Shown one piece after another: positions 52,310 to 59,378 of a stretch of DNA of 59,378 bases (positions are counted from its first letter, which is position 1; every line of letters begins with the position of its first letter). Where the stretch lies: NCBI GenBank assembly GCA_012735495.1, contig JAAYHD010000054.1:1-59378 (forward strand). The letters are read 5' to 3'. Source of the DNA: Clostridiales bacterium (GTDB taxonomy: Bacteria; Bacillota; Clostridia; Lachnospirales; Lachnospiraceae). A program made the translations under genes and the position numbers. Under the pieces are notes generated by a model. The model did no database searches, was not told the origin of the DNA, and saw only the letters and a list, made by a program, of their open reading frames with translations.

Positions 52310-52399
52310 TTTATTTGATGTATATGAAATGTTATATAAATTATCCGGGTAAGCTATAGAGCAGGTTTTTAGAAGGCTTGTAAAAGGGTTGAAACATGC

Positions 52400-52471
52400 G
52401 GAGAAAAGGCTGGAGCATCCGGGGAAAAAGGCTGAGTCATGCAGAAAAAAGGCTGGAGTATCCGGAGAAAG
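52400..52471 (+). repeat. 21-22 bp tandem repeat upstream of ispG (about 3.4 copies)
   Basis: Three imperfect units lie head to tail at 52400-52420, 52421-52442 and 52443-52463. A partial fourth is at 52464-52471. Each unit carries GGAGAAAAGGCTGGAG or a close variant, and the first and third are nearly identical. The unit length (21, 22, 21) is not held to a reading frame. The array ends 38 nt before the ispG start. Confidence 0.75.
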
Positions 52472-53571: not shown

Positions 53572-53634
53572 ATTATGATATAACCGATAGGATTTCTAAT
53601 CTGCAGGCAGAAAATCAGGATGGGAGAAATACGC

Positions 53635-56600
53635 ATGTTATTTTTCGAAGCATTTGAGCAGCTGTCTTGTGATAATGAACTGAAGAGCATTTACAACCTT
53701 GTTGAGGTTGTAAAGGTTGTCGCGTCCAGGAAAAATAATACCGTTACCATACATATCAAAAGCAAGGCATTGATTCAATGGAAGGATATAAAGAAAATGG
53801 AGGAACTGCTTAACCGGCAGCTCTTTTCACATACAGGCAACAAGGCATGCATTTCGCCGTATTTTGAGCTTGAGGGAAAGAAAGAACTGATTGATATCCT
53901 GTCTGACTATATTGACAGCATACTCAGTGAGCTTAAGGAAGTCAGCATAGTGACCTATTACCTGCTGATGCAGTCGGAGGCGGATGTAAATGGCAGCGCC
54001 ATAACAATAAAAACCATGGAAAACTGTGTCGCCGAAGAAAAATTCGACTGGCTCAGGGATTACCTTGTAGGGATGTTCAGGGAAAGGTTCGGCCTGGATA
54101 TTACGGTCAGGTTCGAATACATAAAACCGAAGCAGCAGAGGAAACCCAAGCTGCCCGCTTTCTTAAGGCCTGAGGAAGAAGCCTTTTTGGATGACGACAG
54201 TGAGAACGAAGACAACGGCTACGAGTATGAGTACGAAAATGAAATTGTTAGCCACGATAATAATAACCGGGACTTAAGAGGCGGTAACGGATACGGCAGT
54301 GGCTTGGGCAATGGAAATGGTTACATAAACGGAAATGAAAACGGTTTTGGGCATGAATATATAAATGGCTATGGGAATGGATATGAGCATGAAAAAGTGA
54401 ATGGAAAAGGATATGGAAATGGATACGGAAATGGTAATGGACATGGTAATGAGCCCGGAAACGGTTTTAATGAAGGATACGCATACGAGTATCATAATGG
54501 TAATGGGAACGGTTACGACAGCAGATATGATAATGAAAGCTTGAACGGAAACGGTCTTGGAAACGGGAACGGTTATGATGACCATGGGAACGGCGCCAGT
54601 AATGGCAGCAGCAATGGGAATGGCGCCGGTAATGGCGGCAGCAATGGGAACGGTGCTAGTAATGGGAAAAGCAATGGGAACGGCAACGGAAACGGAAGCA
54701 AGAAATCCGGTTCCAAGCCAAATACGAAATCAACATATGACAAGAGCAAATTCCGCAAGCTTCCCAAGGACCCGTCGGTTATTTACGGGAAGAATTTCGA
54801 TGGGAATGTGATTCCCATCAGTGATATTATCGATGAACTGGGAGCGGTGGTCATACGGGGCAAGGTCAGAAAGCTGGAGAGCAGGCCCTTAAGCAATGGA
54901 AAGTGCCTGATTACATTTGCGATTACTGACTTTACCGACACCATCAAGGTTAAAATATATGTCAACGCGGACAATGCCGGGGATATCCTGGAGCAGCTTA
55001 AGGAAGGCTCCTTCTATATACTCAAGGGCGTTGCCATGATGGACAACTACGAGAAGGAGATCACCATCGGTTCCGTGGTGGGGATTAAGGCTATCGAGGA
55101 TTTCACCGTCAAACGGGTTGACCTGGCACCGGTTAAGCGTGTCGAGCTTCATGCCCATACCATGATGAGTGACATGGATGCGGTTGTGGATGTGGAGAAG
55201 CTGGTCCGCCGGGCATTTGACTGGGGGCATCCTGCGGTCGCAATAACGGATCACGGGGTCGTTCAGGCATTTCCGCAGGCCAATATGGTCATTAACCCGA
55301 AGAATTTTACCGATCCGCAAGAGAAGGAGAAGGCGGAGAATTTCAAAGTCATTTACGGTATGGAGGCTTACCTGGTTGACGATGTTAAGGAAGTTGTTAT
55401 AAACGGCAGGGGACAAAGCCTTAAGGATGACGTATTCGTGGTATTTGACATTGAGACCACGGGCTTCAGCAAGGTTAATGACAGGATTATTGAAATCGGC
55501 GCGGTCAAGGTTGCCGGGGGCGAGATAATTGACAGGTTCAGCACGTTTGTAAATCCGGGGATGCCGATACCGGACCATATCACGGAGCTTACTTCCATAA
55601 CCGATGATATGGTGGCAGACGCCCCGTTTATTAAGGATGTAATCGATGAGTTCTTTGAATTCTGCGGGGATTCGGTGCTGGTGGCGCATAATGCGTCTTT
55701 TGACATTGGATTTATCTTGCAGAATGCGCAGAGACTGGGGATTGAAAAGGAATTTACATATATAGATACGGTGGGCTTGTCCAGGATCCTGCTTCCCGAC
55801 CTTAGCAGGTACAGGCTGAACAATGTTGCGAAAGCCCTGGGAGTTTCCCTGGAGAACCATCACAGGGCCGTTGACGACGCGGAAGCTACTGCGGAGATCT
55901 TCCTAAAGCTGACAGGCATGCTGTTTGAACAGGATATCGTTAATGTAAATGATATCGATAAGCTCACAAAGCTATCGGCGGAAGCCATCAAGAAAATGCC
56001 GACATACCATGCGATACTGCTTGTGAAAAATGATATCGGGCGCGTTAACCTTTACAAGATGGTTTCCCTGTCGCACATCGAGTATTATCACAAGAGGCCA
56101 AGGATACCCAAGAGCCTGCTCATGGAGTGCAGGGAAGGGATTCTTGTGGGCTCGGCATGCGAGTCCGGGGAGATTTTCCGCGCCATAGTGTCGGGGGAAT
56201 CTGAGGAGCAGCTTGAGAGGCTGGTGAATTTCTACGACTACCTTGAGATACAGCCCGTCGGCAACAACGAGTTCCTTATAAACAGCGAGAGCAGCGAGCA
56301 TGCGGGAATCAAGTCCGCGGAGGATTTGAGAAACATCAACCGGAAGATTGTGGCCTTGGGCGAAGAGTACAACAAGCCGGTGGTGGCCACCTGCGATGTG
56401 CATTTCCTTGACCCTGAGGACGAGATATACAGGAGAATCATCAAGGCAAGCCTGAAATACAAGGATGCCGATACGCAGCCGCCGCTTTATTTCCGCACCA
56501 CCGAGGAAATGCTGGAGGAATTCTCTTACCTGGGACCGGAAAAGGCCCGGGAGGTTGTAATAGACAATACAAACCTGATTTGCGGAATGATTGAAAAGAT

Positions 56601-58521
56601 TTCACCGGTAAGGCCGGACAAATGCCCGCCGGTATTGCCGAACTCTGACGAAAACCTTAAGGAAATATGCTACAAGAGAGCTCATGAAATCTACGGTGAG
56701 GAGCTTCCCGAACCGGTAAGAAAACGGCTTGAGCATGAGCTGAATTCTATTATATCCAACGGGTTCGCGGTCATGTACATAATTGCGCAAAAGCTTGTAT
56801 GGAAGTCGCTTGAGGACGGATACCTGGTCGGCTCCCGTGGATCGGTCGGTTCGTCATTCGTGGCAACAATGGCGGGAATCACCGAGGTAAATCCGCTGCC
56901 GCCGCATTATTACTGTGAAAAATGCCACTACAGTGATTTTGACTCCGAGGAAGTGAGGGCGTTTGCCGGGAGCTCCGGCTGTGACATGCCCGACAAAAAC
57001 TGCCCGGTATGCGGTACTCCTCTTAAGAAGGACGGGCACGACATACCATTTGAAACATTCCTGGGATTTGACGGTGACAAGGAACCGGATATCGACCTTA
57101 ATTTCTCCGGTGAGTATCAGAGCAGGGCCCATGATTATACGGAGGTTATCTTCGGGAAGGGCCATACATTCCGGGCGGGAACAATCGGCACCCTGGCGGA
57201 CCGGACCGCCTATGGCTTTGTGAAGAATTATTTTGAGGAGAGGGGCATTCACAAGAGGAATGTCGAGATTGACAGGCTGATTGAAGGCCTGGTGGGTGTC
57301 CGCAGGACGACCGGCCAGCATCCCGGAGGAATTGTAGTCCTGCCTCACGGTGAAAACATTTACTCGTTTACGCCGGTGCAGCATCCCGCAAATGACACGG
57401 AATCCAAGGTAATCACCACCCATTTTGATTACCATTCGATTGACCATAACCTGCTGAAGCTTGACATACTGGGCCACGATGATCCCACCATGATAAAGAT
57501 GCTTGAGGACCTGACCGGGGTGGACGCGAAGACGATACCATTTGACGAAAAGAAGGTTCTCTCGTTGTTTCATGATACGAGCGCGCTTGGCATCAAGCCG
57601 GAGGATATCGACGGGTGCGAGCTCGGCTGCCTGGGTGTGCCGGAGTTTGGTACGGACTTCGTAATGCAGATGGTCAAGGAGGCCAAGCCCAGGACATTTT
57701 CGGACCTGGTGCGGATATCGGGCTTAAGCCACGGCACCGACGTGTGGCTGGGAAATGCGCAGACTCTTATTAAAGAAGGAACCTGTACACTGTCCACGGC
57801 GATATGTACCCGTGACGATATAATGACATACCTGATTAACAAAGGGATGGACTCAAAGCTGTCATTTAAGATTATGGAAAACGTCCGTAAAGGCAAGGGG
57901 CTTACTCCGGAAATGGAGTCAGCCATGAAAGCGGCGAATGTTCCGGAATGGTATATCCGTTCCTGTAAGCAGATTCAGTACATGTTCCCGAAGGCTCACG
58001 CGGCGGCCTATGTAATGATGGCGTTCCGCATAGCTTACTATAAGATTTATTATCCGCTGGCATACTATGCGGCTTTCTATTCAATACGCGCGTCGGCGTT
58101 CAACTATGAGCTCATGTGCCAGGGCAGGCAGCATCTTGAAAGAGTAATGGCAGACTACAAGCGTAGAATGAACACGCTGACCAAGAAGGAGCAAGACACC
58201 TACCGCGACATGCGAATCGTGCAGGAGATGTACGCAAGGGGAATATCATTTACCCCTATTGACATTTACAAGGCGCATGCCACCAGGTTCCAGATTATCG
58301 ACGGAAAAATCATGCCTTCTCTAAGCTCCATAGACGGCATGGGCGAAACCGCCGCCAATAACGTCGCCGAGGCCGCCAGGCAGGGACGCTTCCTGTCCCG
58401 CGACGATTTTAAGACCCGCTGCAAGGTCAGCTCCACCGTGGTCGATACGATGGTAAGGCTTGGCTTGCTTGCGGACCTGCCGGAGTCGAACCAGATGTCG
58501 CTGATGGATTTTTTGCAGTAG
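53635..58521 (+). CDS. polC: DNA polymerase III alpha subunit, PolC type, with low-complexity insert
   Basis: PolC is the replicative polymerase with built-in proofreading. The protein has 1628 residues; about 1430-1450 is typical. Layout: N-terminal domain (1-175); acidic stretch (about 180-205); Gly/Asn/Tyr-rich insert (about 216-355); OB domain (about 375-490); PHP part 1 with ELHAHTMMSD (505-513); DEDD exonuclease with VVFDIETTGF (near 605); the polymerase core with a zinc site (CEKC...CPVC), DKEPDIDLNF and TTGQHPGGIVVLP; and a C-terminal clamp-binding peptide QMSLMDFL. All catalytic motifs are intact. ATG 53635 is chosen because GGGAGA lies about 7 nt upstream; an in-frame ATG is at 53620. 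Confidence 0.96.
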   Translation: MLFFEAFEQLSCDNELKSIYNLVEVVKVVASRKNNTVTIHIKSKALIQWKDIKKMEELLNRQLFSHTGNKACISPYFELEGKKELIDILSDYIDSILSELKEVSIVTYYLLMQSEADVNGSAITIKTMENCVAEEKFDWLRDYLVGMFRERFGLDITVRFEYIKPKQQRKPKLPAFLRPEEEAFLDDDSENEDNGYEYEYENEIVSHDNNNRDLRGGNGYGSGLGNGNGYINGNENGFGHEYINGYGNGYEHEKVNGKGYGNGYGNGNGHGNEPGNGFNEGYAYEYHNGNGNGYDSRYDNESLNGNGLGNGNGYDDHGNGASNGSSNGNGAGNGGSNGNGASNGKSNGNGNGNGSKKSGSKPNTKSTYDKSKFRKLPKDPSVIYGKNFDGNVIPISDIIDELGAVVIRGKVRKLESRPLSNGKCLITFAITDFTDTIKVKIYVNADNAGDILEQLKEGSFYILKGVAMMDNYEKEITIGSVVGIKAIEDFTVKRVDLAPVKRVELHAHTMMSDMDAVVDVEKLVRRAFDWGHPAVAITDHGVVQAFPQANMVINPKNFTDPQEKEKAENFKVIYGMEAYLVDDVKEVVINGRGQSLKDDVFVVFDIETTGFSKVNDRIIEIGAVKVAGGEIIDRFSTFVNPGMPIPDHITELTSITDDMVADAPFIKDVIDEFFEFCGDSVLVAHNASFDIGFILQNAQRLGIEKEFTYIDTVGLSRILLPDLSRYRLNNVAKALGVSLENHHRAVDDAEATAEIFLKLTGMLFEQDIVNVNDIDKLTKLSAEAIKKMPTYHAILLVKNDIGRVNLYKMVSLSHIEYYHKRPRIPKSLLMECREGILVGSACESGEIFRAIVSGESEEQLERLVNFYDYLEIQPVGNNEFLINSESSEHAGIKSAEDLRNINRKIVALGEEYNKPVVATCDVHFLDPEDEIYRRIIKASLKYKDADTQPPLYFRTTEEMLEEFSYLGPEKAREVVIDNTNLICGMIEKISPVRPDKCPPVLPNSDENLKEICYKRAHEIYGEELPEPVRKRLEHELNSIISNGFAVMYIIAQKLVWKSLEDGYLVGSRGSVGSSFVATMAGITEVNPLPPHYYCEKCHYSDFDSEEVRAFAGSSGCDMPDKNCPVCGTPLKKDGHDIPFETFLGFDGDKEPDIDLNFSGEYQSRAHDYTEVIFGKGHTFRAGTIGTLADRTAYGFVKNYFEERGIHKRNVEIDRLIEGLVGVRRTTGQHPGGIVVLPHGENIYSFTPVQHPANDTESKVITTHFDYHSIDHNLLKLDILGHDDPTMIKMLEDLTGVDAKTIPFDEKKVLSLFHDTSALGIKPEDIDGCELGCLGVPEFGTDFVMQMVKEAKPRTFSDLVRISGLSHGTDVWLGNAQTLIKEGTCTLSTAICTRDDIMTYLINKGMDSKLSFKIMENVRKGKGLTPEMESAMKAANVPEWYIRSCKQIQYMFPKAHAAAYVMMAFRIAYYKIYYPLAYYAAFYSIRASAFNYELMCQGRQHLERVMADYKRRMNTLTKKEQDTYRDMRIVQEMYARGISFTPIDIYKAHATRFQIIDGKIMPSLSSIDGMGETAANNVAEAARQGRFLSRDDFKTRCKVSSTVVDTMVRLGLLADLPESNQMSLMDFLQ
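54592..54681 (+). repeat. Three 30-bp direct repeats inside polC
   Basis: The repeats encode the decapeptides GASNGSSNGN, GAGNGGSNGN and GASNGKSNGN, in frame and head to tail. They form the 3' end of the longer Gly/Asn-rich coding stretch at 54280-54699. DNA similarity is high (AAT GGN and AGC AAT GGG blocks), so unit gain or loss by slippage would keep the frame. Confidence 0.75.
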
Positions 58522-58730: not shown

Positions 58731-58861
58731 ATGTGAACATACGGAAGGCATGAATCCTGATTACGGCAGATGATATTATTACTGGCAGATAGATATTATC
58801 ACTAATAGTATTACGAAAAATTGTACAATAAGGATAAAATAGATAAATATGTAAAAATGTG

Positions 58862-59035: not shown

Positions 59036-59378
59036 ATGTTTATTTATACAAGAAAAAATAAAGGGTTATTGGCTGTTTTAATAGCAGTGTGCTTATTTGG
59101 GTCATATTTTAGAGTTCAAGAATCCAAGGCAGCGGACAAGTACATTAAAGTTGAGGATTTTATTAAATATATTGTTCAGCAGATGGAATGGGCAGTTGAT
59201 GAAAATTCAGACCGGCCATATATTGATGCGGCCATAAAAGAAGGAATATTAAAGAAGAATGATTTTAAGGATTACTCGGCATATCTGACAAGGACGGACG
59301 CTGCGGTAATAGCCAATCGGCTGGATGAGTTAGTCCATCAAAAATGCGGGTATCCGGAGGATGTGTATGAGTTTTTAA
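59036..59378 (+). CDS. Secreted protein with SLH-like N-terminal domain, 3' end beyond the window
   Basis: The reading frame is open for 114 codons to the window edge. It starts MFIYTRKNKG with a hydrophobic signal-peptide core (LLAVLIAVCLFGSYF), probably cut near SKAAD. The mature part contains YIDAAIKEGILKKNDFKDYS and LTRTDAAVIANRLDE, the pattern of S-layer homology domains (aromatic start, GI(L/I) turn, LTRxxAA). An SLH module would tether it to secondary wall polymers. AAAGGGG lies 7 nt upstream of the ATG. It has its own strong promoter and a structured leader. The total length and remaining domains cannot be seen. Confidence 0.75.
   Translation, partial: MFIYTRKNKGLLAVLIAVCLFGSYFRVQESKAADKYIKVEDFIKYIVQQMEWAVDENSDRPYIDAAIKEGILKKNDFKDYSAYLTRTDAAVIANRLDELVHQKCGYPEDVYEFL

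Follow-up and report, generated by a model that had tools for sequence, protein, structure and literature searches.

PolC and its linker

The window, meaning the whole 59,378-nucleotide stretch analysed here, is part of contig C25 of a draft clostridial genome (2.24 Mb, 69 contigs, 96% complete) and contains polC, the gene for the PolC-type DNA polymerase III, whose product carries a long linker between its N-terminal domain (NTD) and its OB domain. Translation of polC may start at 53620 or at Met6 (53635). The protein was identified by a full-length equivalog match to NF001688 (1768 bits versus a cut-off of 873; model length 1445; NCBIfam) and by a match to TIGR01405 (1630 bits versus 1043). 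Pfam placed N-I at residues 7–71 and OB at 410–484, followed by the PHP, exonuclease, polymerase and HhH parts, which is the order expected of PolC, NTD-OB-PHP(Exo)-Pol-HhH, and the one given for the B. subtilis enzyme. The N-II match at residues 96–174 scored 20.5 bits, below the cut-off of 26.3. The features of the gene needed below are:

53620..58521, + strand: polC, PolC-type DNA polymerase III, 1633 aa, from the open frame and family matches
54151..54246, + strand: LPAFLR, acidic run and Y[ED][FY] island, residues 178–209, conserved in one clade
54154..54735, + strand: linker predicted to be disordered, residues 179–372 (194 aa), from the comparison of relatives and an AlphaFold2 model
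54211..54576, + strand: main dipeptide array, residues 198–319, 61 dipeptides in which G/E/D predominate in slot 1 and N/Y in slot 2, interpreted as a decayed GGN-(A/T)AY repeat
54584..54684, + strand: 30-bp tandem repeat, 3.4 copies, 83% matches, in the opposite dipeptide register (NG), with DNA repeats slightly above synonymous redraws
54697..54783, + strand: basic linker end adjoining OB, residues 360–388
54847..55071, + strand: OB domain, from Pfam (residues 410–484) and the AlphaFold2 model

The original prediction, made from the sequence of the window, had described an insert at 54160–54720, and this interval does encode residues 181–367, between the NTD and OB. It had also reported about 25 acidic residues at the start; an acidic stretch is present, but it consists of 27 residues (183–209) of which 13 are Asp or Glu. 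The claim that some 140 residues are made almost entirely of Gly, Asn, Tyr, Ser, His and Glu was borne out, as these six account for 84% of the 141 residues from 220 to 360 (48 Gly, 35 Asn, 13 Tyr, 10 Ser, 8 Glu and 5 His) compared to 30% of the rest of the protein. Gly residues spaced as GxG occurred 31 times versus 14.5 expected, with a maximum of 24 across 5000 shuffles. GC3 was 0.42 over the linker (54235–54717) and 0.63 in the rest of polC.

An AlphaFold2 model of residues 1–508 was built from an alignment of 60 of the 128 distinct PolC sequences described below, that of the window included. Ten-residue means of pLDDT were 93–98 over residues 11–170 and 85–98 over 381–500, whereas pLDDT fell below 50 at residues 197–201 and at almost all of 203–374, and no secondary structure was assigned within 183–386. 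From this model, and from its composition, we predict that the linker is disordered. A sequence search of the PDB with the NTD gave no convincing relative (a single match, E 0.27), and its structure matches were weak only. The domain may be KH-like, and it would probably serve in docking.

We considered whether the linker is a mobile insert or an extra domain; no family match fell inside it among the Pfam matches and 25 of the 42 NCBIfam matches. Nor was a genome-wide habit of NG-rich proteins seen in the comparisons made. Eight of the 12 NG-pattern matches in the genome lay inside this linker (5 matches with the backward control pattern), and the other four were single, in or opposite unrelated genes. 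Segments of 60 residues with at least 65% of the six amino acids were found in 19 of 1358 open frames of at least 200 aa, drawn from 168 sources with many copies of the same DNA; 17 of these frames were PolC, 11 of them the window's own gene. By eye, neither SSB nor tau of the same genome shares the tract, the SSB (L128) having a short acidic tail that ends in DEELPFN.

The linker in related PolC proteins

To place the linker among its relatives we started from 159 loci, some of them not PolC and some repeats of one gene, which yielded 142 frames with an NTD match and 128 distinct sequences; the sample is biased to near relatives, as one search contributing to it was limited to the top 80 out of 579 matches that were confirmed. 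All 142 frames also carried OB, with a linker between the two domains, and six more frames matched OB but not the NTD. Linker length was taken between HMM bounds, which for the window gives residues 170–388, or 219 aa. A linker was present in 128/128 distinct proteins and ranged from 42 to 237 aa, with a median of 105.5. The two longest were those of the sister species (L003, 237 aa) and the window, the 22 sequences labelled as outside the window's order had 42–65 aa, and a single genus spanned 61 to 237 aa. Most linkers were unrelated in sequence, being Gly/Ala/Ser-rich, Lys/Glu-rich or Asn-rich. Longer linkers contained more Gly and Asn (Spearman 0.73) and fewer hydrophobic (−0.53) and charged (−0.57) residues, although p-values of these correlations mean little because the sequences are related. 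The hydrophobic share was low throughout (median 15%).

In a tree of 36 PolC cores the window and L003 were sisters (100) inside a clade of eight sequences (99), and L003, a second species at 80% identity, has a tract resembling that of the window. Alignment of the window with the seven other clade members gave 0–2 gapped positions in the NTD, OB and core and 34–118 in the linker. The LPAFLR-acidic-Y[ED][FY] island was found in 8/8 members of this clade, while PAFLR was in 0/120 of the other linkers and Y[ED][FY] in 5/120. Charge followed a more general trend. The last third of the linker was more positive than the first third in 113/128 (6 equal, 9 opposite), and after trimming of the ends the C-terminal half was the more positive one in 86/98.

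These comparisons bear on two further statements of the original prediction. The protein was said to be about 180 residues longer than typical, which agrees with the NCBI model (188 longer); the excess is smaller relative to the 128 relatives, where a linker of 219 aa compares with the median of 105.5. The possibility had also been raised that all PolC proteins of the family carry an equally long but unrelated linker; a linker is indeed general and mostly unrelated, but only the sister species has one as long. We conclude that the window linker is the extreme of a variable tether found in all relatives compared, and not a unique insert.

The whole protein also stands outside the fairly narrow length range of PolC, which is a described feature of the enzyme rather than a defining one. 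Its open frame has 1645 codons, compared to 1377–1543 codons in 85 other full-length frames, hand-counted among the matches listed from a phylum-wide draw of 299 genomes, 214 of which gave a match at 1e-150. Within the window's own genus, stop-to-stop frames reached 1681 (L003) and 1691 (L011) codons. According to a 2013 survey, PolC length varies little and unassigned regions lie only at the ends. A long internal linker sits badly with that description, although the survey may have counted shorter linkers with the NTD.

Several observations from the same comparison are recorded here. The linkers of L040, L057, L063, L089, L104 and others end beside OB in basic Lys/Arg-Gly-Phe repeats, reminiscent of RGG boxes, and the pattern [KR]G[GDENS]?F occurs in 29/128 linkers. 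Two genomes labelled only as same phylum (L131, genome G273, and L132, genome G109) have a PolC 66–69% identical to that of the window with an OB-to-end query, which is no lower than the 65% reached by the best of the other families in the window's order (full-length query); L131 falls within a 28-sequence clade containing the window's genus, and horizontal transfer or misplaced genomes are possible. Many phylum-wide matches begin only at the polymerase part, in frames mostly of about 1130–1300 codons, which would fit a published PolC variant that lacks the exonuclease insert (PMC3919608).

Origin of the repeat and probable selection on the protein

Read as dipeptides, residues 198–319 form 61 units in which slot 1 is mostly Gly (33), Glu (11) or Asp (4) and slot 2 is mostly Asn (25) or Tyr (16). 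Tyr and Phe keep one parity in 15/15 cases in the linker segment of the window and in 19/20 in that of L003. Residues that are Gly or Asn, or one base from GGN or AAY, fill 53/61 of slot 1 and 52/61 of slot 2 in the main array, and 63/67 and 61/67 of the two slots in L003. Judging by these counts, the restricted alphabet of the tract is nearly what single-base changes of a GGN-AAY hexamer would produce. The tract looks like a decayed GGN-(A/T)AY hexanucleotide repeat, the ancestral unit perhaps being the 12-bp GGN-AAY-GGN-TAY. An Asn/Gly-rich linker outside the eight-member clade (L012) does not have the dipeptide register, and therefore it seems an independent case.

Little of a DNA repeat remains in the window. 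Repeated DNA 12-mers over residues 206–366 numbered 6, compared to 5.1 in synonymous redraws, and 0 compared to 2.5 over residues 206–325. The deficit in the main array is not significant evidence of selection against DNA repeats, as a fraction of 0.24–0.43 of the redraws had as few or fewer. The DNA repeat of L003 remains pronounced (50 versus 6.3). In the Gly codons of the window linker every base occurs at the third position (1.97 of 2 bits). When a repeat was decayed neutrally in simulation to the observed third-position identity of 0.38, the six amino acids fell to 48% and about six stops appeared, whereas the window retains 79% and has none; this test presumes a starting repeat of uniform codons and would be weakened by a longer, codon-mixed unit. 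Among the 128 linkers 12 are repetitive in protein and only three of those in DNA; DNA-level repeats were seen in L003, L102 and L040. The protein of the window linker, with 37 repeated 4-mers versus 8.4 in shuffles, is far more repetitive than its composition demands. Because this repeat has survived in the protein but hardly at synonymous positions, we take it as a sign that the protein came under selection once the repeat had expanded, and that the tract is translated.

A proposed tether between the NTD and the polymerase body, and its alternatives

We propose that the segment serves as a disordered, hypervariable tether which connects an NTD docking in the replisome with the OB/polymerase body and which was lengthened in this lineage by in-frame repeat expansion, and give this a probability of roughly 0.7; the readings weighed in this section are not mutually exclusive. 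The segment varies in sequence and length between conserved domains, and is disordered in the model made for the window. A long flexible tether was among the suggestions of the original prediction, and it is supported by the predicted disorder, by the finding that within the clade only the linker changes length while the domains do not, and by publications on the NTD. In a cryo-EM study of E. faecium PolC, the NTD is flexible and was not resolved (PMC12592400). In the proposed mechanism, a 6- or 12-bp GGN-AAY / GGN-TAY repeat would have expanded in frame within an older linker, after which substitutions would have accumulated under selection keeping the residues hydrophilic and the chain flexible. 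The partner on which the NTD docks would be the clamp loader (DnaX) or a different one. Kept at the fork in this way, the polymerase could use the long chain to reach out, come off and bind again; lengthening the chain would extend the reach and make the docked body locally less concentrated. Contact with DNA may be tuned by the acidic residues at the start of the linker and the basic ones at its end beside OB, both being tendencies in most linkers compared.

Several points weigh against this proposal. Short linkers also occur within the order (L025, 61; L028, 58; L030, 56; L145, 51), and disorder of the relatives' linkers is inferred from composition, the AlphaFold2 model being that of the window. 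The clamp loader as binding partner of the NTD is a published proposal (PMC3919608). Parity is not kept by every residue of the window segment: His is split 3:3 and Gly 33:15, the latter since the register of the second array is the opposite one. That second array, residues 326–366, retains DNA repeats (5 12-mers versus 0.8, p 0.04), and third-position identity at lag 10 is still in excess (0.42 versus 0.29). The excess of protein 4-mer repeats in the linker (37 versus 8.4, with 0/1000 shuffles reaching 37) was measured against shuffles that do not preserve local composition. Charge polarity exceeded that of a linker's own shuffles at the 95% level in only 29/128 linkers, which are themselves related.

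The linker could instead have grown simply because any hydrophilic in-frame insertion is accepted there, its length and composition having no function. The wide differences in sequence, length and composition among close species speak for this, and the DNA-level repeats of L003, L102 and L040 point to growth by duplication. The persistence of the window's protein pattern through synonymous change, the excess of protein-repetitive over DNA-repetitive linkers and the continued scarcity of hydrophobic residues speak against it, and we regard growth of this kind as unlikely. Somewhat more doubtful is the suggestion that Tyr stickers with Gly/Asn spacers self-associate and concentrate replicases, somewhat like the Gly-rich linker of E. 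coli SSB. The composition would suit, with 15 Tyr/Phe in 161 residues of the window linker, and Tyr makes up a larger share in L003 and the window than in any other of the 128 linkers. Within the sample such richness is confined to this pair of species; long linkers elsewhere are Tyr-poor (4 Tyr each in L011 and L021, and few in L063), so a Tyr-driven condensate cannot be the general role of the linker. The condensate-forming or prion-like element suggested in the original prediction is possible but unsupported. Moreover, Arg is scarce (4 in residues 181–367), and Tyr, being one base from Asn, may simply accompany the repeat. Evenly spaced aromatic stickers are a correlate of condensate-forming low-complexity domains; here the coefficient of variation of the aromatic gaps was 0.63 versus a shuffle mean of 0.86, with 9.8% of shuffles as low, which is not significant. 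A narrower form, in which the G-[N/Y] array of the two species is a self-associating scaffold that gathers replicases, or PolC and the clamp loader, at the fork, appears improbable. If true, it would place a condensate scaffold inside the replicative polymerase itself, and that scaffold would have arisen in a single genus out of a short DNA repeat.

It is about as improbable that the linker is chiefly an electrostatic regulator that gates the access of DNA to the polymerase, with DNA mimicry by the acidic start and a grip on DNA by the basic end beside OB. The positive shift along most linkers, the island kept throughout one clade and the match of the OB part of the AlphaFold2 model to ssDNA-binding OB folds are consistent with such a role, but the shift seldom exceeds that of shuffled sequences, and the PAFLR-acidic island is confined to the one clade. 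An assembly or annotation artefact is scarcely credible. The genome is a draft in 69 contigs, but the longest exact direct repeat in 54236–54720 is 14 bp, the frame is open throughout, and a second species (L003) has a similar tract.

As a tether between folded domains, the linker is laid out like domain II of DnaA, a disordered linker that joins the KH-like domain I to the AAA+ domain. The C-terminal linker of FtsZ is likewise a hypervariable disordered tether, although in a different protein and leading to a short peptide instead of a domain. The solved E. faecium and G. kaustophilus PolC structures and B. subtilis PolC represent the same enzyme as that of the window; the linkers described here differ from the descriptions of these proteins in being internal and up to about 200 aa long. 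The E. coli SSB linker resembles the PolC linker in being Gly-rich, disordered and attached to an OB domain in a replication protein, and its Gly-rich and aromatic parts govern condensation (PMC12143593). SSB differs in forming a tetramer and in having a conserved C-terminal tip, whereas the PolC linker joins two folded domains.

Literature searches on a PolC linker and on PolC condensates brought up nothing that describes this linker, although most subscription journals were outside the coverage and absence is thus unproven; in the literature that was found, the joint between the NTD and the body of PolC has received little attention. The more than fivefold range of linker length in the sample is a natural series for testing how the length of a tether affects polymerase exchange at the fork. 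In addition, a short DNA repeat seems here to have become part of the protein made by an essential gene, and its pattern has lasted longer in the protein than in the DNA.

Outside polC, frames upstream of it look like dxr, rseP and ispG. A degenerate 21-bp tandem repeat lies at 52382–52470, between the rseP-like and ispG-like frames. Downstream, a frame at 59036–59377 runs off the end of the window; it has a signal-peptide-like start and a stretch that looks like an S-layer homology motif. A 20-bp repeat is located upstream of this frame, at 58760–58803.
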